Source: Bacteroidales bacterium UBA5382 (lineage in GTDB: Bacteria; Bacteroidota; Bacteroidia; Bacteroidales; Dysgonomonadaceae). Taken from it: DNA of 64,000 bases. Location of the stretch: NCBI GenBank assembly GCA_002409745.1, contig DHOU01000013.1, forward strand, positions 17,042 to 81,041, written 5' to 3'. The notes under the pieces were generated by a model, which saw nothing but the letters and a program-made list of their open reading frames with translations, was not told the origin of the DNA and searched no databases. The translations under genes were made by a program, and so were the position numbers. Of this stretch, positions 5,918 to 62,323 are shown piece by piece; the stretch's first letter is position 1, and every line of letters starts with the position of its first letter.

Positions 5918-6012
5918 TCGAATATAAATAATAAAGAGACGACAAAGAGAGTGCTTATCAAAAATCGTAGTATTTGTATCATTTTTTGCAATATATATTC
6001 GATTGTAATCCT

Positions 6013-6020: not shown

Positions 6021-6103
6021 CGTCGTTCAATAAAAAGAACTATGATACCAGCGTTTTACAACATTCAATTATCAAAGAAATAAATTAAAAACATAAGCAT
6101 GGC

Positions 6104-9138: not shown

Positions 9139-9157
9139 GAAATTAGAAGTGAGAAAG

Positions 9158-10801: not shown

Positions 10802-10819
10802 ATTATTTATTTATCCATT

Positions 10820-12400: not shown

Positions 12401-12487
12401 ACGGATAATGATTCGTACCGTCAATTAACCGATGCGAAGCGACTTGCTGACAGTTAGTTCCCATGCGATATCTTTTTTACGCATATT

Positions 12488-38043: not shown

Positions 38044-40632
38044 TTAATTCTTGAAAAACAGCGTATCGTCGATGGCATCGATGGTGATGCCTTTGGAATT
38101 ATCGACCGTCCCGGCAAGAATATCTTTCGAAAGCTGATTCAACACCTTGCGCTGAATAACCCGTTTCACGGGACGCGCCCCGAACTCGGGATTATATCCC
38201 GCATGAGCGATGCTGGCAACGGCTTCGTCGGTATACAAGAGTTCGATTCCGTTCTCATGCAACATCTTTTTCACGCCATTCAACTGCAAACGTACGATTT
38301 GAGCAATTTCTTCCTGCCTCAACGGCGCAAACATAATGATGTCGTCGATACGGTTCAAGAACTCCGGACGAATGGTCTGCTTAAGCATTTCCATTACCTG
38401 CGCTTTCGTATTCTCGATGACTTCCTCCCGGTTGTTGTCGGTTATTTTCTCGAAATTATCCCGGATAAGGTTCGACCCCATGTTGGACGTCATAATGATG
38501 ATGGTGTTCTTAAAATTGACCACCCGCCCCTTGTTGTCCGTCAACCGGCCGTCGTCGAGCACCTGCAAGAGAATATTGAACACGTCGGGATGCGCTTTTT
38601 CGATTTCGTCGAACAGCACCACCGAATAAGGTTTCCGCCGGATGGCTTCGGTGAGTTGCCCGCCTTCATCGTATCCCACATATCCCGGAGGCGCCCCGAT
38701 GAGCCGTGTGGCGCTGAACTTCTCCTGATACTCGCTCATGTCGATACGCGTCATCATATTTTCATCGTCGAACAGATAATCGGCCAACGCTTTGGCCAGT
38801 TCGGTCTTCCCGACTCCGGTCGTACCCAGGAAAATAAACGAACCGATAGGACGCTTCGGATCGCTTAATCCGGCGCGATTCCGCCGAACGGCATCGGCTA
38901 CGGCGGCAATGGCTTCATCCTGTCCGATGACCCGCTGATGCAATTCGTCTTCGAGATGCAAGAGCTTTTCGCGTTCGCTTTGCAGCATTTTGTTTACCGG
39001 TATGCCCGTCCATCGCGATACGACATCGGCAATGTCGGCGGCATCGACCTCTTCTTTAATCATCGCGCGGCCTCCTTGCTGGTCATGAAGCTGTTGCTGC
39101 AATTTTTCGATCTCGGTCTCTTTCTCTTTAATCCGTCCGTAGCGCAATTCGGCCACTTTACCGTAATCGCCTTCGCGTTCGGCTTTATCGGCTTCGAACT
39201 TCGCATGCTCGATATCGACTTTGTTTTGCTGAATTTTATTGATCAATCCTTTTTCAGCCTGCCATTTCGACTTCAACGCATTTTCCTCTTCCCGCAGATT
39301 TTCGATCTGACGGGTCAACACCTCTTCCTTTACCGTATCCTTTTCACGACGGATGGCTTCGCGCTCAATTTCGAGTTGCTTGGTCTTACGCATAATCTCA
39401 TCGAGTTCTTCGGGAACCGAATCGACTTCCATACGCAGTTTGGCCGCCGCTTCGTCCATCAGGTCGATGGCCTTGTCGGGAAGGAAACGGTCGGTAATAT
39501 ACCGATGCGACAACTGCACGGCGGCAATAATCGCCTCATCCATAATCCGGACCTTATGATGCGTTTCGTATTTTTCTTTCAATCCCCGAAGAATCGAAAT
39601 CGAGTCGGCCTCGCTGGGTTCGTTCACCATCACCGTTTGGAAACGCCGTTCCAGCGCCTTGTCTTTCTCGAAATACTTTTGATACTCATCGAGGGTGGTC
39701 GCACCGATAGCCCTCAATTCCCCGCGCGCCAGGGCCGGCTTCAGAATATTAGCCGCGTCCATGGCCCCTTCGCTCTTTCCGGCTCCGACCAGCGTATGGA
39801 TCTCGTCGATAAACAAGATGATCTCGCCTTCGGACTTCACCACTTCGTTCACGACCGACTTCAGGCGCTCTTCGAACTCGCCTTTATATTTGGCTCCCGC
39901 GATGAGGGCGCCCATGTCGAGCGAAAATATTTGTTTACTCTTCAGGTTTTCAGGCACGTCGCCTCGGATGATACGATGCGCCAATCCCTCGGCAATGGCC
40001 GTTTTACCCGTTCCCGGCTCGCCGATAAGAATAGGATTGTTCTTGGTGCGGCGGCTCAATATCTGTAATACACGGCGTATTTCCTCGTCACGCCCGATCA
40101 CCGGGTCGAGCTTGCCCTCACGCGCTTTTTCCGTAAGATTGATCGCGTATTTACTCAACGACTGATAGGTATCTTCGGCCGACTGGCTGGTTACTTTTTC
40201 ACCTTTGCGAAGTTCTTTCACCGCCAGTTCGAGTTCCTTTTGCGTCACACCGGCATCTTTGAGAATCTGCGATGCGGGACTGTTTTCGCTCATCAATGCC
40301 ATCAACAGATGCTCAAGCGATACGAACTGGTCGCCCATCTTAGACGATAAATCGGAAGCCTTCGTAAAAACGGCATTCGTTTCGCGGCTCAGCATCGGCT
40401 CTCCGCCCGACACTTTCGGCAGGGAAGCGATTTCCTGCTCCAAGCGGCTGTCAATCTGAGAGGGATTCACGCCAAGCTTACGAAATAAAAAGCCCGTCAC
40501 ATTCTCTCCCGACAACATCACCCCTTTCAGTACATGTACCGGTTCGATAAGTTGTTGCCCGCTGCCCTGCGCCAACTCGATGGCTTTTTGCACGGCCTCT
40601 TGGGCTTTGATTGTAAAATTATTAAAATTCAT
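38044..40632 (-). CDS. clpB: ATP-dependent disaggregase ClpB
   Basis: 862 residues, full length. The double Clp-N repeat (about 1-145) is followed by AAA+ domain 1 with Walker A 'GEPGTGKT' and '[13 protein letters not shown]', the coiled-coil middle domain (about 405-520, '[18 protein letters not shown]' and '[18 protein letters not shown]'), then AAA+ domain 2 with '[14 protein letters not shown]' and '[30 protein letters not shown]'. The middle domain separates ClpB from ClpA/ClpC. It resolubilises aggregated proteins with DnaK. A minus-strand TATCTTTG at 40837-40844 is a candidate promoter 205 bp upstream. Confidence 0.97.
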
Positions 40633-41006
40633 ATAGATAGTTTTTTTCGATTATACTTTTTATTCATTATATAAGACCGATCAAAATTCTTGCCACGACA
40701 TAAAAGATGACTTTTTGACAGGGTATCTTTGTATCTATCCGGGAATTATAGTCGTTCCTATTCCTAAGGCCGGATGTTATTGATTGACACTTTTCATCTC
40801 ATCCGTTTACAAATAGTCATTCTTAACGGCAAGAGACAAAGATAAACGATCCTTTTGACTTACGTCTTAACAAATTGTTCTTGATTTTTTTTGTTAGTGG
40901 GAAAAATAATCCATACATTTGCAAGGACAAAGAATAAAGATGTAACATCTTATTTTCAACCATATTGATAAACAGAATGAAAAATTGTTATTCAAATAAA
41001 TTAAAA
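40633..41006. other. Divergent clpB / nuclease-locus intergenic region
   Basis: 374 bp without a gene. The plus-strand promoter at 40890-40921 serves the nuclease locus. TATCTTTG occurs on the plus strand at 40724-40731 and on the minus strand at 40837-40844 (CAAAGATA as written), the latter a candidate for clpB. I see no strong heat-shock inverted repeat of the HrcA/CIRCE type. Confidence 0.5.
40890..40921 (+). promoter_or_regulatory. Promoter of the nuclease/TonB-receptor locus
   Basis: TTTG at 40890-40893, a 20-bp spacer, TACATTTG at 40914-40921: a near-ideal Bacteroidetes promoter, 86 bp before the ATG of the fimbrillin-nuclease gene at 41007. Confidence 0.7.
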
Positions 41007-42632
41007 ATGAAAAAACTGTATTTACCGTTATTTTCACTCATCCTTCTTCCTTTAGCTTCTTGCGATCAAGAACAACCGGTATTACAAAAACAAGAAAAAA
41101 CGCCCCTTTATTTCGGAAGCGTCCTGATACAAACGGAAGCGGATATTACCCCACGCGCTACCGGTGCGCAATGGGAAGCGGATGACGCCATCGGAATCTT
41201 TGCCGTCAACCACCAAATGCCTCTGGAAGAAGGGAACATCTTCGACGGAAGCGAGAATGTGGCTTTTACCACTCAAGGGGACGGCTTTTTCTATCCGAAA
41301 GGAAAAAACATCTATTATCCCGAAGGGGATGCTTCGATCGATCTGATCGCTTATTATCCGTACAACGAATCGATAACCGGATATGCCTATTCCATCGACC
41401 TTACCAAACAAACGGAGTTTTTCTACAGTAACAACTTACAAGATATCAGCAAGGCAAAAGGAGGCGCCCGGACGCTGGAGTTCCGGCGCCCGCTGACAAA
41501 AATCGTCTTGAACATTACGCCAAAAAAAGAAGGCTCTACGTTGGATGGACTCACGGTAACAGCTCGAGGCGCTCTCGTGCGGGGTTCGTTCTCGTTGGCC
41601 GGCGGAACGCTCAAAGCCGACGAAACGTCAACGGGCGACATTGAATTGGCCGTGTCGGGAAGTTCCACGCAAAAGCAGGCATCGGGGATGTTTTTCCCCA
41701 CCGGACAACCGGAAGCATTGACCGTCGACTTCACCCTTCAAGGGAAGACCTTTACCTGGCGTCCGAAGGAAATTCTGCAAGGCGGTAAAGCATATCGTTA
41801 TACCATCGAGCTGGATGGTCTCGAATCGACCGCCGCCCTCTCGACATCCTACATGGAGATACCGGCTTACACGTCGGGCGGAACGGCGCCCCACTCCGCT
41901 TCGGCCCTGCACATGGTCGGCGACAAAGACTGGTTGAATCCAAGCTATACGGTCAATAATACGAGCATCCGCAATTACAGTATCTTGTACGATACCGAAA
42001 ATCGCGTGCCGTATTGGGTGGCATATCCAATGCATTCGATGTATTTAGGGGATGCCGGCAGGACAGAAGAATGGGATTACGACCCTATCATTTCACCCAA
42101 AAGTGTGCAACCCACCTTATATAATGGTTGGTCTAGCATGACGTATAATAGAGGACATCTATTGGCCAGTGCGGATAGAAACGCAACGAGAGTCCTAAAT
42201 GAAACAACTTTTTATTTTACTAATATGGCTCCGCAAGACAAAGATATGAACAGCGGGCCGTGGGCCGTGCTCGAAAATAAAGTTCGTGAGTGGTGTAAAC
42301 AATCTGCTTATGATACGCTCTATGTGGTGACCGGCTGTATTCTTCCCGAGTCTTCCCAGCAATACACGTATGTCAATGACAATAATCAAAAAGGATCCGT
42401 TGTACCAAAATACCTGTACAAGGCATTGTTGCGTAAGCAAAAAAACGGCGGCGCCTATACTTCGATCGCTTTCCGGATGGAAAACGCCGATACAAAATCG
42501 CCCTATTACAGCAATATCGTATCGGTCGAAACGTTGGAACAGGAAACGGGCTTTACGTTTTTCCCCAACTTGCCCGCCGATGTGGCGAAAGAAGTTAAAA
42601 AGAACGCATCCCAATCACCGCACTGGAATTAG
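41007..42632 (+). CDS. Fimbrillin-like lipoprotein fused to a DNA/RNA non-specific endonuclease
   Basis: 541 residues from the ATG at 41007, which opens a lipoprotein signal ('LPLFSLILLPLASC'). Residues about 30-270 are a fimbrillin/Mfa-like domain ('PRATGAQWEADDAIGIFAVN', 'DLIAYYPYNES', 'FRRPLTKIVLNI', 'MFFPTGQPEALTV'). Residues about 290-535 are a NUC-type nuclease: 'YSILYDTENRVPYWVAYPM', 'TYNRGHLLASADR' with the catalytic His near 382, and 'FTNMAPQDKDMNSGPWAVLE'. The usual DRGH is NRGH here; the His is kept. Family knowledge: Mg-dependent cutting of DNA and RNA. It would sit on the cell surface and start the degradation of nucleic acid for the receptor encoded downstream (inference). Confidence 0.85.
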   Translation: MKKLYLPLFSLILLPLASCDQEQPVLQKQEKTPLYFGSVLIQTEADITPRATGAQWEADDAIGIFAVNHQMPLEEGNIFDGSENVAFTTQGDGFFYPKGKNIYYPEGDASIDLIAYYPYNESITGYAYSIDLTKQTEFFYSNNLQDISKAKGGARTLEFRRPLTKIVLNITPKKEGSTLDGLTVTARGALVRGSFSLAGGTLKADETSTGDIELAVSGSSTQKQASGMFFPTGQPEALTVDFTLQGKTFTWRPKEILQGGKAYRYTIELDGLESTAALSTSYMEIPAYTSGGTAPHSASALHMVGDKDWLNPSYTVNNTSIRNYSILYDTENRVPYWVAYPMHSMYLGDAGRTEEWDYDPIISPKSVQPTLYNGWSSMTYNRGHLLASADRNATRVLNETTFYFTNMAPQDKDMNSGPWAVLENKVREWCKQSAYDTLYVVTGCILPESSQQYTYVNDNNQKGSVVPKYLYKALLRKQKNGGAYTSIAFRMENADTKSPYYSNIVSVETLEQETGFTFFPNLPADVAKEVKKNASQSPHWN

Positions 42633-42715
42633 CGGAAAATGAGTTGTAAAACCATTATCATAATATATACTCTAGTCAATTCGTTCAATTATCCATCATT
42701 AAAATATTCAGCCTT

Positions 42716-45091
42716 ATGAAAAGTAATAAAATTTTTTCTCTTCTGCTTCTCGGGGCCGTCGCTTTCGGTTCCTGTAATAGTGAAGACGAACCTCTGACAA
42801 ACCCGCTTAGCGGCGAAAATCAGGTGAAATTCCAAGCTTCTATCGGAGCAAGTGTAACCACACGGGCCGCCGGAACGACTTGGAATGCGGGCGACGCTAT
42901 CGGCGTGTATGCGCTGAATGCCGGACAGAAATTGCCGGACGGCGTATACGATAGCAAATCGAATATCAAGTATACGACTCCCACCGAAGCCGAACAAGGA
43001 GTCTTTACCGCCGCAACGGAAGGCATTACGTTCCCCGAAACAGGCAACTTGGACTTTATCGCGTATTATCCCTATCGGGAATCGCTCGCAAACAATGTGT
43101 ATGCCATCGACGTAGCCGACCAATCCAAACCGGCGGCCATCGACCTGTTGTTTTCCAATAACGCCGTCAACCAATCGGAACCGGCGGTCGCTCTTCAATT
43201 CAAGCATCAACTGGCCATGCTGGTACTGAATGTTTCGGCAGGCGACGGTGTAACGTCACTGGACGGCTTAACGGTTTCGATCGAAGGATTGAAAACCGAC
43301 GGTACCTTTAACTTAGCCGACGGAAGTATTACCACAGGCACAACGGTCAAAACGATCACCCCTGTTGTAGCCGCTTCCGGAAAAACAGCTACCGTAGCGG
43401 CCATCCTCGTGCCGGGACAAGACCTGAAGGATGCGAAGATATCGTTTAAAGTAGGAGGCCAAACTTACGAATGGACACCCGATGCACAAGCCGTCGAAAC
43501 CGGTAAAAAGTACACATACCCGTCCATCCAGCTTTCTACAACCGGCGTTACGGTAGTACAGCCTTCTGCAACCATTGTTGATTGGGAAGATGTGGAAGTA
43601 GGCGGTATCGTTACACTGAAACCGAATGAAGGAGAGCAAGGCTCCTGGACTGTTGCCGAATTACGTTCGAAATTTACCGGAACGGAGTACACAATTACCG
43701 AAGAGGTGAAAGTAAAAGCCGTCGTGATCCAAAATAAAGAAGGCGGAAATTCCACTTCACTGAAAAATATCGTCATACAGGATGAAACAGCCGGTATCGC
43801 GGTGCGTTTTGTAGAGAACAACGAAACGCTTACATTCGGAGATGAAGTCGAAATCAGCCTCAAAGATCAAAAGTTGTCTGCCTATAACGGATTGTTGCAA
43901 ATCAACAATCTTCCGAATGCAAATGTGACAAAAATAGGAACGAAAACCGTAACGGCGAAAGAAGTAACGGCGGCCGATTTCCTTGCCGGTAAATACGAAT
44001 CGCAATATGTAGCCGTCCCGAATGTACAGGTTGTTGCAGCCGATTTGGAAAAAACATTCGCCACGGACAAACATGGTTCAATCAACATGGAATTTGAAAA
44101 CGGCGGGCAATTCATTCTCTTTACCTCGAGTTACGCGGTATTCAAAAATCAAAAGGTTCCCCAGGGAAGCGGAACGCTAAAAGGAATCGCCAGCATCAAT
44201 CAACCGAAAGATGGTGAAGCGGTTTATCAGATTCTGCCGACGGTTGCAGCCGACGTGGAAGGATTGACTCAATCCCGTTTCGGAAGCAGTACAAGCACGT
44301 TGGAAGTTTCTCCTGCAACGATTCAATTGGAAGCGAGCGCAGCAGATGCGCAAAGTATTACTCTTACGGCTTCCGGAGCTTGGACAACGACCACGGAGGG
44401 TAGCGGCTTTACCGTTAGCCCGGAAAGCGGAACCGGCAACGCAACGGTTACGGTAACCGCAACAGCGGCCTCCGGCGCTTCGGGTAAAATAATCTTCGCC
44501 CTCACAGGAACCGCTCTGACGAAAGAAGTGACGATCTCACAAAAAGGCGATTCGCCCACGCCGACATCGAATAATCTTTTCCCCGGATCGGATTTTGAAG
44601 ACTGGACTGCATTTACAGGCGGATTAAAGCCTAATTTGGGATTGAAGGATTATGCAGTTCAAGTTGATGGAGGGCGTAACAATTCCAAAGCACTTACCAT
44701 AAAAGGGACTCCGGGAGCTAACGATTATGTATTTACCGCCACAGTTCCTGAGGGATTTTCAGCGGAAGGAAAAACTAAAGTCGTATTTTATATCAAAGGA
44801 ACGGGAGGAAAATCATTATCGTTGAATTTATATTCTGATGAAATAAGCGGAAAGTATCAAGCTTATATTCCTTTCAATTTGGGAGATTGTGTAACTGATA
44901 AAGAATTAAGTAAGAGTTCTTCTAACCAATATGGAGGAGCAATTAACACAGAGAATGACTGGGTCAAAATTACTTTAAATATACCAGAGGATTTTAATAT
45001 AGCCGTCAAAGGAGGAAATGATCTTTTTGGTTTCAAAGTAGGCAAAGATGCTGCTTACGACCTTTTGGTCGATGACATCACGCTTGAATAA
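42716..45091 (+). CDS. Surface lipoprotein: fimbrillin-like, DUF5689, BACON and C-terminal sandwich domains
   Basis: 791 residues, lipoprotein signal ('LLLLGAVAFGSC', then NSEDE, an acidic surface-export type). Domains: fimbrillin-like (about 30-290, 'TTRAAGTTWNAGDAIGVYALN'), clearly related to that of the nuclease before it; DUF5689/OB-like (about 310-525, 'TEEVKVKAVVIQNKEGGN', 'VIQDETAGIAVRF', 'LYG'-like 'SAYNGLLQINN'); BACON (about 530-620, 'LEVSPATIQLEASAADAQS', 'TKEVTISQKG'); and a sandwich binding domain (about 630-791, 'LFPGSDFEDW' to 'DLLVDDITLE'). By eye the last 500 bp are more AT-rich than the rest, hinting at a later-acquired module. No enzymatic motif; probably a ligand-binding partner of the receptor. 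Confidence 0.72.
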   Translation: MKSNKIFSLLLLGAVAFGSCNSEDEPLTNPLSGENQVKFQASIGASVTTRAAGTTWNAGDAIGVYALNAGQKLPDGVYDSKSNIKYTTPTEAEQGVFTAATEGITFPETGNLDFIAYYPYRESLANNVYAIDVADQSKPAAIDLLFSNNAVNQSEPAVALQFKHQLAMLVLNVSAGDGVTSLDGLTVSIEGLKTDGTFNLADGSITTGTTVKTITPVVAASGKTATVAAILVPGQDLKDAKISFKVGGQTYEWTPDAQAVETGKKYTYPSIQLSTTGVTVVQPSATIVDWEDVEVGGIVTLKPNEGEQGSWTVAELRSKFTGTEYTITEEVKVKAVVIQNKEGGNSTSLKNIVIQDETAGIAVRFVENNETLTFGDEVEISLKDQKLSAYNGLLQINNLPNANVTKIGTKTVTAKEVTAADFLAGKYESQYVAVPNVQVVAADLEKTFATDKHGSINMEFENGGQFILFTSSYAVFKNQKVPQGSGTLKGIASINQPKDGEAVYQILPTVAADVEGLTQSRFGSSTSTLEVSPATIQLEASAADAQSITLTASGAWTTTTEGSGFTVSPESGTGNATVTVTATAASGASGKIIFALTGTALTKEVTISQKGDSPTPTSNNLFPGSDFEDWTAFTGGLKPNLGLKDYAVQVDGGRNNSKALTIKGTPGANDYVFTATVPEGFSAEGKTKVVFYIKGTGGKSLSLNLYSDEISGKYQAYIPFNLGDCVTDKELSKSSSNQYGGAINTENDWVKITLNIPEDFNIAVKGGNDLFGFKVGKDAAYDLLVDDITLE

Positions 45092-45115
45092 AGCGCTCAC
45101 ACGAATCAATCATTC

Positions 45116-45145
45116 AATAGAGGTCAAGAACACTTGGCCTCTATT
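45116..45145 (+). terminator. Hairpin between the lipoprotein and receptor genes
   Basis: AATAGAGG pairs with CCTCTATT around a 14-nt loop that can itself form AAG/CTT. No T-run follows, so this may be an attenuator or mRNA-stability hairpin that lowers expression of the receptor relative to the lipoprotein, or the reverse. Confidence 0.4.
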
Positions 45146-45186
45146 GTTCGCAAAAAATAATATTCATTCTAATAAGAAAAAAACGT

Positions 45187-47934
45187 ATGAAACAAAAATT
45201 ATGGCTTTGGTTGTTCTGCTTATGCGCATTGCCCGCCTTTGCGCAAACGCCGGCCGGAGTAAGCGGAAAAGTAATCGATGAACTCACGGGCGATCCCATA
45301 GCGGGGGTGATGGTCGTGCTGCGGGAAAACAATCAAACGGCGTATACCGGCGAAGACGGCGCCTTCGTGTTTCATCCTGTCACCCACGGCAAAGATGTCC
45401 TGTCTCTTAACGCTGCCGATATTCAATCGAAAGAAATACCGGTCGACATTCCCCGCGAATCATCCTTAGATCTCGGCATCATCCAAGTGACCCGCCGTCC
45501 GATGCCCGTACAACAACTCGCGGGCGTGATCGATGAAGCGCAACGCGCCACGGAAGACGATGACACAGGCCTCTCGCAGGACGTCAGCGCCATGGTCATC
45601 TTCTCGAACGACGTCTTCCTGCAAAACGCGGGATACCAATTCTCGCAATTCCGCTTCCGCTCCCGGGGCTACGAAAACCGCTTCGAAGACCGTTATATCA
45701 ACGGTGTTAACTTTAACGACCAGATACGCGGCGTCTTCAACTATTCATCCATCGGGGCGCTCAACGACATGACCCGCAACGGCGATGCCGTGAACTATTT
45801 CGCTCCTTCATCCTTTACGTTCGGCTCTATCGGCGGATCGGAAAACATCAATATGCGTGCGGGCAACTACACCCGAGGAGGAAAAGTCACGCTCTCCCTC
45901 ACCAACCGCAACTATTATGCCCGGGCAATGGGCAGCTATTCCACCGGCATGCAGGACAATGGCTGGGCGTTTACCGCTTCGGTGGGCGGCCGTTATTCGC
46001 ACGAAGGGCACATCGAAGGGGTGTTCTATCGCAACATCTCGTATTTCGTCGGTCTCGAAAAAGAAATCGCCGGCGGAAAGCACCGCATTTCGTTCGTCAC
46101 GTTCGGATCCCCTGTCGAAAGAGGGCAGCAGGGATCGTCTTATCAGGAAGTGTATGATTTAGTCGATAATAATCTCTACAACCCCAACTGGGGCTATCAA
46201 AACGGGAAGAAACGAAACGCCCGAGTGGTGAAATCGTTCGACCCCACCGCCATCCTTTCGCACGTATGGGAATTGGGTGAAAACACCACACTCACCAGCG
46301 GCGTGGCGGCGCATTACAGCCGCTACGGCGGATCGGCTCTCAACTGGTACAACGGCCCCGACCCGCGTCCCGATTATTACCGCTACTTGCCTTCGTATAA
46401 TCGCGACAATCAAAAGGCTTTCGATTATTACACGTATCTGTGGAAAACGTCTTCCGACGAAAGTATCGCCCAGCTCGACTGGGACAAGATGTGGGAGGCG
46501 AATCACCTGAATAACCTCCAAGGGGACGGCTCCGCCATTTACATGGTGGAAGAACGCCGGAAAGATTTGTTCGAAACGGCACTCAACTCCACGCTCAATA
46601 CCCAATTAAGCCCGGAGGTGAAACTGACGGCCGGCATCGGCTTAAAACACTCGCTTTCGAAACAGTTCAAAACGGTGGACGACCTGCTCGGCGCCCAATA
46701 TGTACTCGACATCGACAAGTTTGCCGAACGGGATTTTGCCGGCGACCGGGAATTGATACAAAACGACTTGGAACGTCCCGACCGCAAAGTGTATACGGAC
46801 GATGTGTTCGGCTATGATTTCCGCTTCCGTGTGAATTCGGCCGATATTTGGTGGCAACAAGAACATACGTATCGGAATATCGATCTGTATTACGGCGCCA
46901 AACTCAAATATACCCAGTTCCAACGCGAAGGAAAAATGCGTAACGGACGTTATCCCGCCAATTCGCTCGGAAAAGGCAAGATGCACCGTTTCACCGACTA
47001 TGCCACAAAAGCCGGAATCACCTACAAACTCAATGGCCGCCATTTCTTTACGGGTAATATCAGTTACCAAACGATGGCGCCTTTGGTCGACAATGTATAT
47101 ATTTCGCCGCGCATCACCGACCTGACCGTGAACAATATGAAAAGCGTCCGCGTTTTCTCGGCCGACCTGAATTACATCTTCTCGCTCCCCAGCCTGATGG
47201 GACGCGTGAGTGTGTTCAATACCCATTTCTATGACGATGTCGATCACATGAGTTATTATCACGACTCGGAGCGGACTTTCGTCAACCACGTCCTTTCGGG
47301 AATAGAAAAAGTGCATCAGGGTATTGAGGTCGGACTGAATTACAAACTCAATGAGAATTGGAATTTCGATGTCATCGGTACTACCGGCGAGTATTATTAC
47401 GCGAACAATCCCGAAGGAGTCATCAGTTACGAAAACGGAAAAGGCGACATCATGGCCGAGACCGCCTATATGAAAGACTACTATGTAGGAGGCACGCCGC
47501 AAACCATGGGTACGTTCGGCATCAATTTCTTTTATGACTATTGGTTTCTGAACCTCAACATCAATGGCTTTGCAGGCAATTACATCGAGATCGCACCGTT
47601 CCGGCGTTTGGCTTCTAACTATGCAGGCATCCAGCCTCCCGGAACCGGCGGATTCGACGAGAACTTATATGACGCCTATCGTTTCTTTACGCATCAGGAG
47701 AAATTCAAAGGAGGCTATACACTCGACTTAGGCATTGGAAAGATATGGTATCTGGCCAACCGCAATTCCATCAACTTCAATCTCTCGGTGAATAACCTGC
47801 TCAACCGCACGGATATTCGCACCGGAGGATATGAACAGGCCCGTATCAATCTGGATTATCCCAATCGCTTCGCCTCGAAATATTATTACATGCAGGGCAT
47901 CAATTGCTTCCTGAATATGAGTTATCGTTTTTAA
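45187..47934 (+). CDS. TonB-dependent receptor of the putative nucleic-acid locus
   Basis: 915 residues: signal peptide ('KLWLWLFCLCALPAFAQ'), a carboxypeptidase-like regulatory domain (about 20-105, 'GVSGKVIDELTGDPIAGVMVVL'), a plug ('VFLQNAGYQFSQFRFRSRGYENRFEDRYINGV', 'FGSIGGSENINMRAG' in parts) and a large barrel ending 'NCFLNMSYRF'. It is not a classical SusC: the TonB-box and plug lack the usual SusC phrases and no SusD follows. DUF5689 lipoproteins lie on both sides and nucleases at both ends of the cluster, so import of nucleotides or oligonucleotides, or of freed phosphate or nucleosides, is the working inference. Confidence 0.82.
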   Translation: MKQKLWLWLFCLCALPAFAQTPAGVSGKVIDELTGDPIAGVMVVLRENNQTAYTGEDGAFVFHPVTHGKDVLSLNAADIQSKEIPVDIPRESSLDLGIIQVTRRPMPVQQLAGVIDEAQRATEDDDTGLSQDVSAMVIFSNDVFLQNAGYQFSQFRFRSRGYENRFEDRYINGVNFNDQIRGVFNYSSIGALNDMTRNGDAVNYFAPSSFTFGSIGGSENINMRAGNYTRGGKVTLSLTNRNYYARAMGSYSTGMQDNGWAFTASVGGRYSHEGHIEGVFYRNISYFVGLEKEIAGGKHRISFVTFGSPVERGQQGSSYQEVYDLVDNNLYNPNWGYQNGKKRNARVVKSFDPTAILSHVWELGENTTLTSGVAAHYSRYGGSALNWYNGPDPRPDYYRYLPSYNRDNQKAFDYYTYLWKTSSDESIAQLDWDKMWEANHLNNLQGDGSAIYMVEERRKDLFETALNSTLNTQLSPEVKLTAGIGLKHSLSKQFKTVDDLLGAQYVLDIDKFAERDFAGDRELIQNDLERPDRKVYTDDVFGYDFRFRVNSADIWWQQEHTYRNIDLYYGAKLKYTQFQREGKMRNGRYPANSLGKGKMHRFTDYATKAGITYKLNGRHFFTGNISYQTMAPLVDNVYISPRITDLTVNNMKSVRVFSADLNYIFSLPSLMGRVSVFNTHFYDDVDHMSYYHDSERTFVNHVLSGIEKVHQGIEVGLNYKLNENWNFDVIGTTGEYYYANNPEGVISYENGKGDIMAETAYMKDYYVGGTPQTMGTFGINFFYDYWFLNLNINGFAGNYIEIAPFRRLASNYAGIQPPGTGGFDENLYDAYRFFTHQEKFKGGYTLDLGIGKIWYLANRNSINFNLSVNNLLNRTDIRTGGYEQARINLDYPNRFASKYYYMQGINCFLNMSYRF

Positions 47935-47983
47935 TGAAATGAACAGAATCACAAACAACGCATTCAATACAAATAATAAAGAT

Positions 47984-49336
47984 ATGAAAATTTACAGCTA
48001 TTTACTCGGAATACTTTTGATGGCCGGCGTACTGCTTTCGTGCGAACGCGATTATCAGGCGCCTCCCTTAACCGAACCGGAATATACCGGGACCGAAGCG
48101 AACATGACCATCGCCAAACTCAAATCGTTATACGCAACCATTTCCGACCCTACGCTTATCGACGTAGACTATATCATCAAGGCGACCGTAACGGCAAATG
48201 ATATCTCCGGAAACATCTACAAACAATTGTATATACAAGACGAAACCGGAGGAATCAACATCGGCGTCGATCAAAATTCCATTTATACCGATTTCCGTGT
48301 AGGACAAGAAATATATCTTCACCTGAAGGGTTTATATATGATCGTTTACGGTGAACAACTCCAGATAGGATATGCCGCCACCAACGCCAACCGCATCCCG
48401 TGGGAAGTATTTAATTACTATATCTTCAAAAACAAATGGCCGTTGGAGGAAAATGCGAAACCGAAAACGATCAAGCTTTCCGAACTCAATGATGACATGG
48501 TGAATACGCTCGTGAAACTCGAAAACGTGTATTTCCCCGACGGCGGTAAATTGCCTTTCAGCGATACGGATGCGACCACCAACCGGACGTTGAAGGACGG
48601 CGACGGCAATTCGATCATCGTGCGTAACAGCAACTATGCCGATTTCGCCAATAACCTTCTTCCCGAAGGCGGCGGAACAATCGTAGCGGTGTTATCGAAA
48701 TTCCGTGCGGACTGGCAACTCTATCTCCGCACTGCCGACGACTGTCAAAACTTCGGGCAACCGATCCCGGGCGAAACACCTACCGAACCGGGCGAAGAGG
48801 TAACCGTTTATTACAAGGAATCCTTCGGTACCAAAGAGATTACCGAAAGCGTGAAACCCAAAATCGCGGAATACACTGAATTCGACAATAAAGACATTGA
48901 ATATAGCGATGCTTCGGGAGTGACGGATGTAAGAACCACAAAAACTTTCAATACTCCCCATCTGTGGTTCCCCGCCAAGAAGGATGCTTATCTCACCATT
49001 AAGAAAGTCGATACTTCCGCCGGAGCAAATGAAAAATTGGCTTTACAATACGAATTGACGGCGAACTTGTTTGATGCCGGATCGGAGATGAACCTGAATG
49101 CAATGACTGTCATTGTAGACGGAAAAGAAATGCCGGTACCCGATCAAACGGTAAGCAATGCCAATAACGATAACAACAAAGTGTACACGGTAACACTGAC
49201 CGATATTCCGGCGAAAAAAGATCTAACAATACAGTTTCAGGCCAAAGCTTCGCTGAACACTTTCGGACTTCGTTTGGATAACATCGCCATTACAACCGCC
49301 CCGGAAGAAGTGATCGTGATTAAACCTAAAAATTAA
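47984..49336 (+). CDS. DUF5689 lipoprotein
   Basis: 450 residues from the ATG at 47984, which opens a lipoprotein signal ('LLGILLMAGVLLSC', then ERD); the upstream in-frame ATG at 47939 would add 15 residues without need. Residues about 35-260 are a DUF5689/OB-fold-like domain ('YIIKATVTANDISGNIYKQLYIQDETGGINIG', 'LHLKGLYMIVYGEQLQIGY'), related to the middle of the 791-residue lipoprotein. The C-terminal half is a beta-sandwich ('AYLTIKKVDTSAGANEKLALQYELT', 'TFGLRLDNIAIT'). OB folds can bind nucleic acid, which suits the locus but is inference. It begins 49 bp after the receptor stop and ends 5 bp before the EEP gene. Confidence 0.78.
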   Translation: MKIYSYLLGILLMAGVLLSCERDYQAPPLTEPEYTGTEANMTIAKLKSLYATISDPTLIDVDYIIKATVTANDISGNIYKQLYIQDETGGINIGVDQNSIYTDFRVGQEIYLHLKGLYMIVYGEQLQIGYAATNANRIPWEVFNYYIFKNKWPLEENAKPKTIKLSELNDDMVNTLVKLENVYFPDGGKLPFSDTDATTNRTLKDGDGNSIIVRNSNYADFANNLLPEGGGTIVAVLSKFRADWQLYLRTADDCQNFGQPIPGETPTEPGEEVTVYYKESFGTKEITESVKPKIAEYTEFDNKDIEYSDASGVTDVRTTKTFNTPHLWFPAKKDAYLTIKKVDTSAGANEKLALQYELTANLFDAGSEMNLNAMTVIVDGKEMPVPDQTVSNANNDNNKVYTVTLTDIPAKKDLTIQFQAKASLNTFGLRLDNIAITTAPEEVIVIKPKN

Positions 49337-49341
49337 CGCAA

Positions 49342-50364
49342 ATGAGAAAATTACTCATTTTAGTTTTTCTTTTCCTAGGTGTCGCCATTTTCGCTCAGGA
49401 AAAGAATTATGCCGTCTATTCTCTGGCATTTTATAATATAGAGAATCTTTTTGATACCGAAAATGATCCGGCCAACCCCGGCGACGATGAATTCCTCCCC
49501 GGAAGCGCTTACAACTGGACACAAGAAAAGTACGAAAAGAAACTCGACAACGTGGCGCGGGTTATCAGCCGGTTGGCGCGCGAATACTGTCCGATGGGAC
49601 CCGCAGCCATCGGAGTGGGCGAAGTTGAAAACCGACGCGTGCTGGAAGATCTGGTGAAGCGTCCGGCTATCGCCGACATGAACCTGCAAATTATTCATCA
49701 GAACTCGCCCGACCGCCGGGGAATCGATGTGGCATTGCTTTACAATCCGCAGATATTCAAAGTAACCAACTACACCGTCCATCCTTTCCGTTGGACCGAC
49801 ACGACCTACGTCACACGCGACCAACTGTTGGTGAGTGGACTGTTGGCGGGAGAGCCCGTGCATATTTCCGTGAATCACTGGCCATCGCGTTACGGAGGAA
49901 AATCGTCTGAATTGCGGGAAGCGGCGGCGGCAGTAGCCAAGGCGGCATTCGATTCGCTGCGGGTGGAAAATCCCGACGCAAAGATCGTTTTGATGGGCGA
50001 CTTGAACGACGATCCCGGCGATAAAAGTGTGCGGGTAGTATTGAATGCGAAGAAACAAGTGCGCGAAGTAGCGTCCGGCGGCTATTATAATACGACGTGG
50101 CGGTTATACGACAAGGGAATCGGCTCGTTGGCTTATCAAGGTAAGTGGAGTCTGTTCGATCAGATCATTATTTCCCAATCATTATTGGGCGAAGATTATT
50201 CGAGTTTCCGTTTCTGGAAAACCGAGGTATTCAATCGCGATTTCCTGATCCAAAAAGAAGGAAAGAATAAAGGATACCCTCTTCGTACTTTTTCAAATAA
50301 TACATTTATCAATGGCTATAGCGACCACCTTCCGGTCATTCTCTATTTAATCCGTCAGGAATAA
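49342..50364 (+). CDS. Secreted endonuclease/exonuclease/phosphatase-family enzyme
   Basis: 340 residues, signal peptide ('LLILVFLFLGVAIFAQ'). EEP-fold motifs: 'SLAFYNIENLFDTEND' (metal-binding Asn and Asp/Glu), 'IGVGEVENRRVLEDL' with the metal-ligand Glu near residue 95, 'DRRGIDVALLYNP', 'VNHWPSRYGG' with an active-site His, 'KIVLMGDLNDDPGD' (catalytic Asp-x-Asn) and 'YSDHLPVIL' (final Asp-His). Family members are DNase I-like nucleases or phosphodiesterases/phosphatases. It starts 5 bp after the DUF5689 gene, so it is translated from the same message. A terminator-like hairpin follows. In this setting it probably completes nucleic-acid breakdown in the periplasm or outside. Confidence 0.88.
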   Translation: MRKLLILVFLFLGVAIFAQEKNYAVYSLAFYNIENLFDTENDPANPGDDEFLPGSAYNWTQEKYEKKLDNVARVISRLAREYCPMGPAAIGVGEVENRRVLEDLVKRPAIADMNLQIIHQNSPDRRGIDVALLYNPQIFKVTNYTVHPFRWTDTTYVTRDQLLVSGLLAGEPVHISVNHWPSRYGGKSSELREAAAAVAKAAFDSLRVENPDAKIVLMGDLNDDPGDKSVRVVLNAKKQVREVASGGYYNTTWRLYDKGIGSLAYQGKWSLFDQIIISQSLLGEDYSSFRFWKTEVFNRDFLIQKEGKNKGYPLRTFSNNTFINGYSDHLPVILYLIRQE

Positions 50365-50370
50365 CAACAG

Positions 50371-50404
50371 AACGGGGGCATTGCATTGAACAACGCTCCC
50401 GTTT
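50371..50404 (+). terminator. Terminator-like hairpin closing the nuclease locus
   Basis: AACGGGGGC pairs with GCTCCCGTT (one G-T) around a 15-nt loop, followed by TTATCATA. It lies 6 bp after the EEP stop codon. Confidence 0.5.
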
Positions 50405-50480
50405 ATCATACCTCATACATCATCGTTCATAGTTCATACATCATCGTTCATCGTTCATAGTTCATACATCCATAGTTCAT
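50405..50480. repeat. TTCATAC/ATCATCG tandem repeat spacer before the rmuC stop
   Basis: Overlapping units 'CATAGTTCATACATC' and 'CATCGTTCATAG' alternate through the spacer and end within the last codons of rmuC. No protein-coding potential. Confidence 0.8.
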
Positions 50481-51973
50481 ACATCATCCTCTTCCGGCGC
50501 ATCATTCAGCAAACTCGACGGCAGTTTCTTCTTAGACTTCACGCCCAGTTCCCTCAACCTCTCAGCTTGCACAAGCAAGTTTCCCCGACCACCGGCAAGT
50601 TGTTTAAAGGCTATTGCATAGTTCTCCTGGGTTTTATCGATACTCTTTCCGATCGCTTGCATGTTCTCTACAAATCCGGCGAATTTATCATATAAAGCGG
50701 CCCCCCTTTCGGCAATTTCCAACGCATTCCGGTTTTGATATTCCCGTTTCCAGAGATCGACAATCAACTTCAACGCGGCGATGAGATTCGTCGGGCTGAT
50801 TAAGAGGATATGTTTGTTATAGGCATATTGCCAAAGTTCGGGATCATGCTGCAAAGCCAACAGATAAGCCGGTTCGTTGGGAACAAACATCATCACAAAA
50901 TCGAGTGTCGGGGCAAAATCCTGATAATGCTTCGCGCTTAGTTCATCGATATGCTTGCGGATGGAACGCAAATGTTCTTGACAAGCGGTTTTCTGTTCCG
51001 CCGCATCATCGGTCGATACATAGCGCGTATAGGCCGTTAACGAAACTTTCGAGTCGATGATGACCTTGCGGTTATCGGGATAAGCGATGATCACATCGGG
51101 TTGCATTTTGCCGCCCGTTTCGTTCCGGTAATTATTGCCGTCATCATCTTTCAAAAACTCCTGCACGAAATATTCCCGATCCCTAACCAATCCCGATTTC
51201 TCCAAGATGTTTTCCAGAATCATTTGTCCCCAATCGCCTTGCGTTTTCGAGCTACCCTTCAGGGCATTGGTCAGATTATTGGCCTCTTCGCTAATCTTTT
51301 GATTGAGTTCGACCAGTTTCGTCACTTCACGCCCCAACGAAAAGCGCTCTTTCGATTCCTTGTCATACACTTCGTCCACCCTCTTCTTGAATACCTCAAT
51401 ATTATCGCCGAGTGGTTTTAATATCGAATCCAAGTTGTTTTTATTCAGGTCGGTGAACTTTTGCGTTTTCTCTTCCAGTATTTTATTGGCGATATTTTCG
51501 AACTCGATATTGAACTGTTTGCGAAGATTTTCCATTTCACTCTTCTGCGTGTCGAGCTTTTCAATCAACGACGTGTTATGGGCGGTAATTTCCGAGACTT
51601 TCCGCATCGCCCCGTTCAATTCATCTGTTTTATCTTTCAATTCATCTTTCATTCGGGAAAGATCGTCCGATAACGTTTTCAGTTGCACGCCCGAAGCATC
51701 GAGTTTGGCCTCCGCCGATGCCAGAGCGACCGTCAAAGCATTGTTCGTCTCCGCCAATTGTCTCGATTCACCCTCGCGGACGAGTAGCCGTTCATTCGCC
51801 GCCCGGTTTTTTTCTTTCTCGATACCTATCTCCGTCTTTAATATACCCAAATCCGATTGCAGTTCTTCGAAAGTTGCCTTCGACACGGTTTTTCCCCGTT
51901 GTAAAAGTGTTGCCAAAATCCAGGCAACTATTCCACCGGCCACTATGCCGGCAAGTAAATAAACTATTTCCAT
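50477..51973 (-). CDS. rmuC: DNA recombination protein RmuC
   Basis: 498 residues from the ATG at 51973, which opens the membrane anchor 'IVYLLAGIVAGGIVAWILATLL'; the 42-residue longer frame has no such logic and crosses the promoter. A long coiled coil (about 30-210) precedes the RmuC nuclease-like domain: 'GSSKTQGDWGQMILENILEKSGL', 'QPDVIIAYPDNRKVIIDSKVSLTAY', 'ISPTNLIAALKLIVDLWKREYQNRNALEIAERG'. RmuC limits certain recombination and inversion events. It is divergent from gap. The last residues are Asp/Glu-rich and partly encoded in the tandem-repeat spacer. Confidence 0.92.
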   Translation of the reverse strand: MEIVYLLAGIVAGGIVAWILATLLQRGKTVSKATFEELQSDLGILKTEIGIEKEKNRAANERLLVREGESRQLAETNNALTVALASAEAKLDASGVQLKTLSDDLSRMKDELKDKTDELNGAMRKVSEITAHNTSLIEKLDTQKSEMENLRKQFNIEFENIANKILEEKTQKFTDLNKNNLDSILKPLGDNIEVFKKRVDEVYDKESKERFSLGREVTKLVELNQKISEEANNLTNALKGSSKTQGDWGQMILENILEKSGLVRDREYFVQEFLKDDDGNNYRNETGGKMQPDVIIAYPDNRKVIIDSKVSLTAYTRYVSTDDAAEQKTACQEHLRSIRKHIDELSAKHYQDFAPTLDFVMMFVPNEPAYLLALQHDPELWQYAYNKHILLISPTNLIAALKLIVDLWKREYQNRNALEIAERGAALYDKFAGFVENMQAIGKSIDKTQENYAIAFKQLAGGRGNLLVQAERLRELGVKSKKKLPSSLLNDAPEEDDV

Positions 51974-52004
51974 TTGATTTTTAAAGCAAAAGTATGATTG
52001 ACCA

Positions 52005-52012
52005 CAAAGATA
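52005..52012 (-). promoter_or_regulatory. -7 box (TATCTTTG) of rmuC
   Basis: Minus-strand TATCTTTG 31 bp before the rmuC ATG, in the divergent rmuC-gap region; matches the box found at other genes in this window. Confidence 0.5.
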
Positions 52013-52048
52013 ACGGTTTTTTCTTTCCGTTTTTTTACAAGGTAATAA

Positions 52049-52080
52049 TTTCCATAAAATGAAAACATTTTGTATTTTTG
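52049..52080 (+). promoter_or_regulatory. Promoter of gap
   Basis: TTTC at 52049-52052 (one mismatch to TTTG), a 20-bp spacer and TATTTTTG at 52073-52080. The gap ATG is 61 bp downstream, leaving an AT-rich leader. Confidence 0.6.
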
Positions 52081-52135
52081 TGTGCAAATAAAGAATCAAT
52101 AATTATTAGAGACTTTTTAAACAATAAAAATTTAA

Positions 52136-53146
<1,011 letters not shown>

Positions 53147-53169
53147 TTTATATTTCTGTTATAATGCTG

Positions 53170-53203
53170 CGGGGGTATCGTTCAATCGGTATCCCCGTTT
53201 TTT
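53170..53203 (+). terminator. Rho-independent terminator of gap
   Basis: CGGGG-GTATC pairs with GGTAT-CCCCG (two G-T wobbles) around a short loop, followed directly by TTTTTT. It lies 23 bp after the stop codon. Confidence 0.75.
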
Positions 53204-53204
53204 A

Positions 53205-53390
53205 TCCCTCTGTCTCTCTGTCCCTCTGTCCCTCTGTCCCTCCATCTCCCCGTCTCTTTGTCTCCCTGTCCCTCTGTCTCTCTGTCTCTCTGTCTCTCTG
53301 TCCCTCCATCTCCCCGTCTCTTTGTCTCCCTGTCCCTCTGTCTCTCTGTCTCTCTGTCCCTTTGTCCCTAAGGGTTCCTCTGTCTCCAAT
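53205..53390. repeat. CTCTGTC/CCCTGTC tandem repeats with a 64-bp internal duplication
   Basis: About 185 bp of C/T-rich units of roughly 8 bp (CTCTGTCT, CCTCTGTC). A higher-order duplication is visible: the block starting TCCATCTCCCCGTCTC at 53241 returns at 53305, 64 bp later. The far end carries TAAGGGT followed by CTCTGTCTCC, as in the element at 23240-23330. It fills most of the 349-bp gap between gap and the ferredoxin gene; open frames through it on both strands are low-complexity artefacts. Confidence 0.85.
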
Positions 53391-53441
53391 GCCCCATCAT
53401 CGCGCGTAACGTTTATCGACGAAGGCCCCTATCATCCAGAC

Positions 53442-60401: not shown

Positions 60402-60517
60402 GTGCCTTTTTTCTACAAAATCACTACCTTTGCTACCGAACAAACGAGAGTATCGGCCCAAGAAAGTCTCGATAAAGTTTATATTACCGAACAATGACAT
60501 TTGTATTGATAAAAAGT

Positions 60518-62323
60518 ATGAGACAAATCCTAATCGTTGCAAGCCTGCTGGCGGCCATTGTTCTTTTTGATGGTTGCCGTCAGAAAGAAAGAGCCTACTT
60601 CGAAAAAGAAATTATCTTCCCCGAGGAAATCACGCCCGAGCAAAAAATAAAGCTCTCCGCCTATCTGACTCCCACCCCTCAGCAATATGCTTGGCAACAA
60701 CTCGAACTCACCGCTTTCATTCATTTCGGGATGAATACTTTTACAGGACGGGAATGGGGTGACGGCACCGAAGACCCTTCGGTTTTTCAACCGACAGACT
60801 TTAATGCCGAACAATGGGTGTCGGTCCTTCAAAAAGCAGGATTCAACATGCTCATTCTTACAGCCAAACATCACGACGGCTTTTGTTTATGGCCCACTAA
60901 AACCACCGCACACTCGGTCGCTTCCAGTCCGTGGCGGGGCGGACAGGGCGATATCGTGCGCGAAGTAAAAAACGCCTGCGACAAATATAATATGAAATTC
61001 GGCGTGTATCTATCGCCATGGGACCGCAATGCTCGCAGTTACGGTGATTCTCCGGCATATAATCATTTATTTATTCAACAACTCACCGAACTCCTCACCC
61101 AATACGGACGCATAGACGAAGTATGGTTCGACGGCGCCAATGCCGAAGGCCCTAACGGCAAACGGCAGATATATGACTGGAAACGTTTTTACCAAGTCAT
61201 CGACAGCTTACAGCCTCAATCGGTAAAAGCGATTATGGGCAACGACATCCGGTGGGTCGGAAACGAAAGCGGATTGGGCCGCCAAACGGAATGGAGTGTC
61301 ACTCCTTTGCAACCCGATATCAACGAATCGATTGTCGAAGAAAATAAACGATTGGGGGTATCCCCGATGTCGGAAGATTTGGGCAGCCGCAAGCTGATCG
61401 GCGAAGCGAAGGCATTGTATTGGTATCCGTCGGAAGTAGATGTATCCATCCGTCCGGGATGGTTTTATCATCCGGAAGAAGATCATCAGGTGAAAACGCT
61501 TGCGCAATTAGTCGATATCTATTATCAATCGGTCGGACTGAATTCGGTTCTCCTGCTGAATATCCCGCCCGACACACGCGGACAATTGCACGAAATAGAC
61601 AGTAGGCGGCTTATAGAATTCGGAGACTACCTTTCGTACGTATTTAAGAACGACAAACTGAGCGACGGCCACAATGCTTGGCGAGCCAAACCGGGCGACT
61701 TTAAAGAATTCGACATGAAAGACGGCGACCCCATCAATACAATTCTTTTACAGGAAGATATTCTAAAGGGGCAGCGCGTGGAAGTCTTCAAAGTGGAAGG
61801 GCTTATCGGCAGTGAATGGATCAAATTGGGCGAAGGCACGACCATCGGATATAAACGATTGATAAAATTTGACGATTGCACTCCCTCTAAAATACGTGTC
61901 ACCATCCTCGAGACACGCGAAAAAGCCGCTATGAAGCGAGTCGGCGCCTATTTCGCACCCGCTATCGACGACTCGTTCAACTCGATGCCGATAAGCAATA
62001 ATCCATCCGGTTGGAAAGTAATTGCGAATGATCCGCTCACCCTCGATATGAGTAAAACGATGGTTATAGAGGGATTCACGTATACGCCCGATCCGCAGAA
62101 AGAGTCGGTCTTTGCCTATACGGTTGAAATAAGCAACGATGGAAAAAATTGGAAAGAGGTGCGGAACAATGAATTTGCCAATATCAAAAACAATCCGATT
62201 AAACAGCGTGTGATGTTTAAGCAACAGGTCAAGACCCGCTTCATACGGTTTCAGTCACTGGTCGGTATCGATGGAGGAAACGCCCCTTTCGCTCCTACTC
62301 AAATAAAAATCCTGACAAAATAA
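60518..62323 (+). CDS. Alpha-L-fucosidase (GH29) lipoprotein
   Basis: 601 residues from the ATG at 60518, which opens the lipoprotein signal ('ILIVASLLAAIVLFDGC'). GH29 barrel: 'ELTAFIHFGMNTFTGREWGDGTE', 'NMLILTAKHHDGFCLWPTKTTAHSV', 'FGVYLSPWDRNARSYGD', and the nucleophile Asp in 'DEVWFDGANAEG' (about residue 205). The C-terminal 130 residues are an F5/8-type sandwich ('YTVEISNDGKNWKEVRN', 'TRFIRFQSL'). It releases L-fucose with retention; which linkage is not readable. Six bp separate it from the DUF3256 gene, so they are probably co-transcribed. Confidence 0.92.
   Translation: MRQILIVASLLAAIVLFDGCRQKERAYFEKEIIFPEEITPEQKIKLSAYLTPTPQQYAWQQLELTAFIHFGMNTFTGREWGDGTEDPSVFQPTDFNAEQWVSVLQKAGFNMLILTAKHHDGFCLWPTKTTAHSVASSPWRGGQGDIVREVKNACDKYNMKFGVYLSPWDRNARSYGDSPAYNHLFIQQLTELLTQYGRIDEVWFDGANAEGPNGKRQIYDWKRFYQVIDSLQPQSVKAIMGNDIRWVGNESGLGRQTEWSVTPLQPDINESIVEENKRLGVSPMSEDLGSRKLIGEAKALYWYPSEVDVSIRPGWFYHPEEDHQVKTLAQLVDIYYQSVGLNSVLLLNIPPDTRGQLHEIDSRRLIEFGDYLSYVFKNDKLSDGHNAWRAKPGDFKEFDMKDGDPINTILLQEDILKGQRVEVFKVEGLIGSEWIKLGEGTTIGYKRLIKFDDCTPSKIRVTILETREKAAMKRVGAYFAPAIDDSFNSMPISNNPSGWKVIANDPLTLDMSKTMVIEGFTYTPDPQKESVFAYTVEISNDGKNWKEVRNNEFANIKNNPIKQRVMFKQQVKTRFIRFQSLVGIDGGNAPFAPTQIKILTK

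Follow-up and report, generated by a model that had tools for sequence, protein, structure and literature searches.

A five-gene locus of Bacteroidales bacterium UBA5382 related to the Riemerella transformation genes: a possible TonB-powered DNA importer

We analyzed a stretch of 64,000 nucleotides from Bacteroidales bacterium UBA5382 (Dysgonomonadaceae; contig DHOU01000013.1), referred to below as the window, in which five genes at positions 41007-50364 form a surface locus. We propose, at a probability of roughly 0.5, that this locus is a TonB-powered outer-membrane DNA importer that would serve mainly to supply phosphate and nucleosides. The basis of this reading is gene content, homology, linkage, and co-inheritance, joined by a modeled transporter fold. 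At the core of the locus is a trio of TonB-dependent transporter, DUF5689 lipoprotein, and endonuclease/exonuclease/phosphatase (EEP) enzyme. The trio is homologous to a module widespread in Bacteroidia, whose transporter-lipoprotein pair Riemerella requires for natural transformation. The window's version is a separate clade, in which the trio would have gained a surface nuclease and fimbrillin lipoproteins.

Gene content and proposed order of events

All five open reading frames (ORFs) lie on the + strand with 5 bp between the last two, as a preliminary description drawn from the DNA letters had it, and the domains found from the ORF list and Pfam agree with that description. The export signals it gave to all five genes can be recognized by eye, as lipoboxes on genes 1, 2, and 4 and ordinary signal peptides on genes 3 and 5. 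Gene 1 (41007-42632, +) encodes a predicted lipoprotein with a fimbrillin-like domain (PF13149, 123 bits) and a sugar-non-specific nuclease domain of the Serratia Nuc and Nostoc NucA type (PF01223, 136 bits). In a PDB sequence comparison the nuclease domain aligned to Serratia nuclease chains and to 1zm8, which we take to be Nostoc NucA, and it keeps the catalytic motifs NRGH at 381, TNMAPQ at 405, and WAVLEN at 419. The profile match together with the RGH, Asn, and Glu motifs places gene 1, as a prediction, in the Endonuclease_NS (DRGH) family, of which it was the sole match in a profile search of the window genome. Gene 2 (42716-45091, +) encodes a predicted lipoprotein with a fimbrillin-like domain (PF13149, 175 bits), a DUF5689 domain (PF18942, 131 bits), and a C-terminal domain; the BACON domain also expected there is weak, its BACON_2 match falling below threshold (21.6 against a cut-off of 25).

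Gene 3 (45187-47934, +) has an N-terminal carboxypeptidase-regulatory-like domain and no TonB-receptor profile match in Pfam or NCBIfam, where only CarboxypepD_reg-like N-terminal domains matched (CarbopepD_reg_2 in Pfam). Likewise, a PDB sequence search found four chains, each matching the N-terminal domain only. Its AlphaFold2 model has the fold of a TonB-dependent transporter, which we regard as a stronger test than a profile, and the model supports the receptor assignment that the preliminary description had made. An NCBIfam S_layer match (27 bits, cut-off 1400) was disregarded because it sits on the CarboxypepD-like domain.

Gene 4 (47984-49336, +; an alternative longer ORF begins at 47939) encodes a DUF5689 lipoprotein (PF18942, 242 bits), the putative DNA-binding partner of the transporter. 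Its AlphaFold2 model (pLDDT 92.8, pTM 0.58) has a C-terminal domain that resembles MAM and cleaved-adhesin domains in structure comparison. Foldseek ranked IFI16 HIN-200 first by E value (1.5e-5), yet with a TM score of 0.32 and a root mean square deviation of 12, and the VIA-align rows span only residues about 270-444, as opposed to the region of interest at about 40-260. A PDB sequence search with the DUF5689 profile gave nothing significant (best E 0.37), and a viral structure library held no usable match for the gene 4 lipoprotein. The profile search of the window genome found no DUF5689 match beyond the locus. DUF5689 profile matches also appeared in a Bacillus subtilis control genome; we suspect these to be the nuclease YhcR, which would tie DUF5689 to nucleases outside Bacteroidota.

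Gene 5 (49342-50364, +) encodes an exported EEP enzyme whose profile match (385 bits) and motifs (NIEN, GEVEN, NHWPS, GDLND, and SDHLP) indicate membership of Exo_endo_phos_3 (PF19580). A PDB sequence search with it gave no match, and the window genome has one further PF19580 match. The preliminary description called this enzyme secreted; the family and the signal peptide stand, and since no type IX sorting tail is visible by eye, periplasmic is the better word.

Together, these genes suggest a route for DNA. The surface lipoproteins from genes 1, 2, and 4 would hold extracellular DNA (eDNA), genes 2 and 4 through DUF5689, and the NucA-like domain of gene 1 would cut what is held. The gene 3 transporter with the gene 4 lipoprotein would pull DNA or large fragments into the periplasm, driven by TonB, and the EEP enzyme would trim the imported DNA there. 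We infer the use of DNA as substrate in the source strain, the order of these steps, the location of the EEP enzyme, and the nutritional role.

Homology, linkage, and co-inheritance of the core trio

A full-text literature search for DUF5689 found one paper, PMC8459023. It reports that markerless deletion of either RA0C_RS04915 or RA0C_RS04920 makes Riemerella anatipestifer non-transformable; RS04915 is an outer-membrane protein whose N-terminal domain is that of gene 3, and RS04920 is a DUF5689 protein. Its authors suggest that the two proteins bind DNA and transfer it through the outer membrane, with an unidentified protein converting it to single strands. Gene 3 has about 29% identity to the Riemerella receptor, and gene 4 has 31% identity over 294 columns to the lipoprotein and lies directly downstream of gene 3 on the same strand, as RS04920 does after RS04915.

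The R. anatipestifer locus that we compared (L110) carries comEC (4561-6321, -; PF03772, 195 bits), then two other genes, the EEP gene (8560-9753, -; PF19580, 333 bits), the receptor gene (10001-12808, +), and the DUF5689 lipoprotein gene (12840-14249, +; PF18942, 192 bits; NF052645, 591 bits). This order agrees with RS04895, RS04900, RS04905, RS04910, RS04915, and RS04920, and by that match RS04910 is probably the EEP gene. Gene 5 is 38% identical to this EEP beside the transformation pair. The enzyme is thus a new candidate partner for the known RS04915/RS04920 pair; we found no publication tying an EEP enzyme to the pair in a literature search conducted mostly by title and abstract. Transcription of RS04910 is described as unchanged by the insertions (PMC8459023).

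Against NF052645, the model of the M949_1556 family, gene 4 scored 132 bits over nearly its full length (cut-off 475) and is therefore a homologue rather than a member of that named subfamily. The lipoprotein of an Elizabethkingia locus (L145) also fell under the cut-off (273 bits), and the receptor of that locus groups with the Riemerella receptor in the receptor tree. This transformation-type lipoprotein shares the C-terminal domain of gene 2 (39% identity over 200 amino acids). The title of one publication places a gene named M949_1556 under antigenicity and pathogenicity, and that work may need rereading in light of DNA uptake.

We then tallied the neighbors of receptors matching at E < 1e-80, counting a neighbor as a DUF5689 lipoprotein if it matched DUF5689 itself or the C-terminal domain of either gene 2 or gene 4. 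A phylum survey chosen on the receptor alone (24 of 148 genomes at E <= 1e-20) comprised the window's own genome, 21 others in the receptor clade, and two weaker ones outside it (L041, L042). Among the 21, a DUF5689 lipoprotein lay downstream of the receptor in 20, an EEP gene lay within 3 kb in 14, every one on the opposite strand, and Endonuclease_NS lay within 7 kb in none. The receptor clade is thus not found mainly beside unrelated enzymes, a pattern that the preliminary description had named as counting against its reading. The 64 loci from named genomes, mostly Chryseobacterium and near relatives, held 62 receptors, with DUF5689 beside 62/62, EEP beside 60/62, and Endonuclease_NS beside 0/62. 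Ten further Weeksellaceae receptors gave 9/10, 10/10, and 2/10, respectively; the two with Endonuclease_NS are five-gene Elizabethkingia cassettes. In the window's family, the window excluded, the counts were 12/12, 12/12, and 10/12, but these receptors came from genomes preselected for DUF5689, which biases the 12/12 linkage, and loci L055-L059 stand outside the tally. The E cut-off left out L041, L042, the second L069 receptor, L159 (receptor in two ORFs), L171 (a fragment), L176 (where the EEP is split in two and DUF5689 was not seen), and seven weak fragments at edges.

A tree of EEP enzymes (75 rows, unrooted, drawn at the midpoint, six weak or fragmentary PF19580 matches left out) placed 48 of 50 receptor-adjacent EEPs within one 56-row set (SH-aLRT 96). 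The remaining two belong to L069 and L078, each being an additional EEP close to the receptor. The same set includes the EEPs of six of the seven survey genomes with no adjacent EEP, the seventh (G166) falling just outside, and the second EEP of the window genome belongs to a separate clade of nine rows. PF19580 has only 1 to 3 matches per genome (26 genomes). The linkage and the EEP tree therefore indicate that receptor, DUF5689 lipoprotein, and EEP are co-inherited rather than chance neighbors.

The receptor tree (65 rows, quick IQ-TREE run without bootstrap) drew long-branch warnings for L176, L077, L042, L172, and L054, and its outgroup differed from the one named by a single row (L069_16242), which duplicates an outgroup sequence under another name. 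It contains a 58-row clade (SH-aLRT 100) with both the window and Riemerella L110, which puts gene 3, on this phylogeny, in the same clade as the Riemerella receptor. Nested within are 35 rows (99) from Weeksellaceae and Flavobacteriaceae, Riemerella included, that form a set largely tracking taxonomy. Window-type receptors form a separate 12-row clade (100) whose stem is long (0.96). L051, L052, and L054, although from the window's family, fall outside this clade, and L051 and L052 keep the divergent EEP layout.

The surface nuclease is what the window-type cassette usually adds. In ten genomes with a window-type receptor, all ten Endonuclease_NS matches lie within 7 kb of the receptor (nine genomes), and G030, with its receptor on a 7.8-kb contig, has no match. 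A genome profile search found none in a Riemerella-like genome (G258) or in G154 (Chryseobacterium camelliae by receptor), and in Flavobacteriaceae and other families some genomes have Endonuclease_NS away from the receptor. Within the window's family, two genomes whose receptor is of the other type (G020, G042) have an Endonuclease_NS match next to it, and a third (G027) has three matches on another contig. Across contigs C341 and C296 of G027, three Endonuclease_NS and one DUF5689 match lie on one contig and two DUF5689 matches on the other, possibly an amplified nuclease locus.

Weighing the proposed function

Import of DNA by the locus seems likely to us, and, if DNA is imported, we lean towards a mainly nutritional role. 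The preliminary description had named nucleic acid as the substrate, and the nuclease motifs, DUF5689, the TonB transporter, and homology to the Riemerella pair strengthen that claim, although the closest relatives that have been studied transform rather than feed. Overall, that description is partly supported: it was right on the genes and probably right on the substrate, it is unproven on nutrition, and it missed the homology to a transformation machine.

A first alternative is that the locus is the natural-transformation uptake apparatus of its lineage, with gene 1 as entry nuclease, genes 2 and 4 capturing DNA, and delivery to ComEC. In its favor, genes 3 and 4 are homologous to the Riemerella pair, and the window genome has only one receptor of the family. 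Distribution speaks differently. The receptor is present in 67 of 70 Weeksellaceae genomes (E <= 1e-60), like a core gene, but is patchy in the window's family, with 13 of 43 genomes at E <= 1e-30 (12 placed in the receptor clade, G014 not placed); the 43 are part of 61 genomes searched for DUF5689 and include 15 of the 16 DUF5689-positive ones. In addition, transforming DNA would lose length to a free surface nuclease. One observation speaks against a competence machine of general use: conditions that work for Riemerella columbina did not make Flavobacterium johnsoniae transformable (PMC7965970), although the trio is present in other species of Flavobacterium (L164-L166). We tried ComEC (PF03772) and HHH_3 (PF12836) as markers separating food from transformation, and each occurred in 41 of 41 genomes at E <= 0.001, with or without the receptor, so neither discriminates. 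HHH_3 exceeded its cut-off in 40 of 41 (one weak match in G030) among the matches listed, which include unrelated HHH proteins.

Elizabethkingia also bears on this alternative. Two Elizabethkingia-like genomes of one genus (G252, G268) have the window-type cassette besides an ordinary receptor, the latter 63% identical to Chryseobacterium and followed by a DUF5689 lipoprotein gene. The divergent EEP gene adjoins the ordinary receptor in G268 (L104) and lies about 6 kb off, past two genes, in the Elizabethkingia occulta locus L153, which corresponds to G252. Their cassettes (L174, L175) have all five genes in the same order and direction, with gene 2 of L174 having no DUF5689 by Pfam; the cassette receptor is 52% identical to the window receptor and 30% to the ordinary Elizabethkingia miricola receptor (L145). 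Elizabethkingia anophelis is reported to be naturally transformable (PMC5981450), and one of its DUF5689 proteins is of the window type (P0335); Sphingobacterium has lipoproteins of this type as well. Most simply, the ordinary trio would be for transformation and the cassette would have another role, and we consider the transformation alternative unlikely for the window. The tree nests the Elizabethkingia five-gene copies within the window's family; monophyly of that family was not rejected (approximately unbiased test, p 0.138), so this tree gives no direction of transfer between Dysgonomonadaceae and Elizabethkingia. In L174, a clostripain-family (Peptidase_C11) lipoprotein gene (L174:13195-14334) follows the EEP gene.

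Quite unlikely, in our judgment, is import of a non-nucleic-acid ligand, such as a phosphorylated or lipid compound, with the nucleases acting on biofilm DNA, extracellular traps, or the DNA of competitors. TonB transporters with lipoprotein partners carry many ligands, as BtuB-BtuG does, PF19580 enzymes could be phosphatases, and secreted Prevotella intermedia DNases act on biofilm and neutrophil traps. However, Riemerella cannot be transformed without its members of this receptor and lipoprotein family (PMC8459023), and receptor and EEP are co-inherited over much of the class. Finally, an ordinary polysaccharide utilization locus (PUL) or a phosphate-stress Pus locus is very improbable: surface lipoproteins with a transporter give a similar layout, and F. 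johnsoniae induces TonB transporters and extracellular nucleases under phosphate depletion (PMC8115612), but the five genes include no glycosidase, SusD domain, or SusC model match in Pfam or NCBIfam and Pus clusters contain PusCD, SusCD-like pairs (PMC8115612), so we rejected the SusC/SusD and Pus labels.

Several observations weigh against a DNA importer devoted to feeding. Endonuclease_NS enzymes can serve as competence entry nucleases, Moraxella NucM among them (PMC6384898), and gene 1 alone is therefore no argument for food. The window genome has ComEC and HHH_3 matches, compatible with transformation, and the cassette has no phosphate, purine, or nucleoside genes. Receptor identity of about 29% supports homology and not substrate. 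Modeling only hints at an OB-type or HIN-like DNA-binding fold for DUF5689, and DUF5689 also occurs apart from this receptor: among 17 DUF5689 loci from the window's family, five (L055-L059, including a 4-kb contig) have no member of the receptor clade in the fetched stretch. In R. anatipestifer, transformation drops without phosphate (PMC8383284). Speaking for the importer, mutants in tonBA and tonBB transform less, tonBA with no iron defect, as a TonB-driven DNA transporter would also predict; the authors attribute the tonBA effect to transport of nutrients rather than of DNA (PMC8383284).

R. columbina, for its part, transforms more without phosphate or peptone (PMC7965970), and use of eDNA by Bacteroidota has been reported, in a paper whose consulted sections mention no TonB transporter (PMC8289736). 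The window type has the look of a DNA importer turned to feeding, and the overall picture suggests one importer that lineages have adapted to different ends, genes or food. More tentatively, Bacteroidota may bring DNA through the outer membrane with this transporter, DUF5689 lipoprotein, and EEP nuclease, unlike uptake by type IV pilus and secretin, and the three may be an old core module of the class that was made, at least once, into a transferable DNA-eating cassette by gaining surface nucleases and fimbrillin lipoproteins.

In the literature covered here, crossing of the outer membrane by DNA in transformable Bacteroidota has been addressed by one genetic screen, which named the pair and offered a speculative model (PMC8459023). 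To this our analysis adds a conserved third partner, a nuclease and so a candidate for the processing of DNA assigned in the Riemerella work to an unidentified protein; the spread of the module through the class; and a second version, rich in nucleases, present side by side with the first in Elizabethkingia-like genomes. A cell with two homologous machines makes the question of DNA for genes or DNA for food testable, and a named transporter family can be offered for eDNA turnover by Bacteroidota.

Transcript signals, surroundings, and known systems

A Bacteroidetes-type promoter-like site, TTTG-N20-TACATTTG, precedes gene 1 (40890-40921, +), by a pattern search with what we take to be the Bacteroidetes consensus. 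The preliminary description had called this a good promoter. The site is there, but the loose pattern has 12 matches in the window, both strands together, and is missing from the 300-bp upstream regions of six related cassettes; the TAnnTTTG element alone is visible by eye upstream of two of the six (L044, L047). A general sigma-70 scan gave no excess (16 sites, 14.9 in shuffles).

The 98-nt gap between genes 2 and 3 (fold energy -22.1 kcal/mol, z -5.40, a value reached by 0 of 200 shuffles) contains a 14-pair hairpin (45115-45146, +), possibly an attenuator or processing site that sets genes 1-2 apart from genes 3-5; no promoter-like site is visible by eye downstream of it. A terminator-like hairpin follows gene 5 (50370-50404, +; -17.8 kcal/mol, z -4.86). 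Because of the hairpin between genes 2 and 3, and the other after gene 5, a single transcript for the five genes is not certain.

The flanking genes, on the opposite strand, are presumably housekeeping: ClpB before the locus (38044-40632) and an RmuC-like gene after it (50477-52099). Between gene 5 and the next gene are degenerate catacatcatcgttcatagtt-type repeats (50404-50490). Farther on, a low-complexity ORF with SLSLCPS-type repeats (53086-53409), probably a non-coding repeat array, follows a GAPDH-like gene, and an alpha-L-fucosidase gene with an F5/8 type C domain (60494-62323) lies distant from the locus.

Polysaccharide utilization loci combine a surface enzyme, surface binding lipoproteins, a TonB transporter, and an exported final enzyme. 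The preliminary description saw this layout mimicked here, and the arrangement is indeed alike; the likeness stops short of a SusC model or a SusD domain, and the window locus has nucleases where PULs have glycosidases. Only the N-terminal domain of gene 3 resembles a domain of a SusC homologue (9hfj, E 0.002). The BtuB-BtuG pair, which handles vitamin B12 in Bacteroides thetaiotaomicron, differs from the window pair in its ligand, in its lipoprotein fold, and in having no nucleases. Gene 1 has the same Endonuclease_NS catalytic motifs as the entry nucleases EndA and NucM (PMC6384898) and as Nostoc NucA but, unlike them, carries a fused fimbrillin-like domain and is predicted to be a lipoprotein. 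The Flavobacterium Pus response to low phosphate shares TonB transporters and extracellular nucleases with the window locus and differs in its SusCD-type pairs and phosphatases, with no mention of DUF5689 found in the available portions of PMC8115612.

With RS04915/RS04920, the window shares a homologous transporter with a CarboxypepD_reg domain, a DUF5689 lipoprotein gene after it, and an adjoining EEP gene of the same family. The Riemerella locus L110 differs in lacking both Endonuclease_NS and fimbrillin genes in the neighborhood of the pair, in its divergent rather than co-directional EEP gene, and in a lipoprotein that passes the NF052645 cut-off that gene 4 falls under, with identities between the two systems of about 29-38%.

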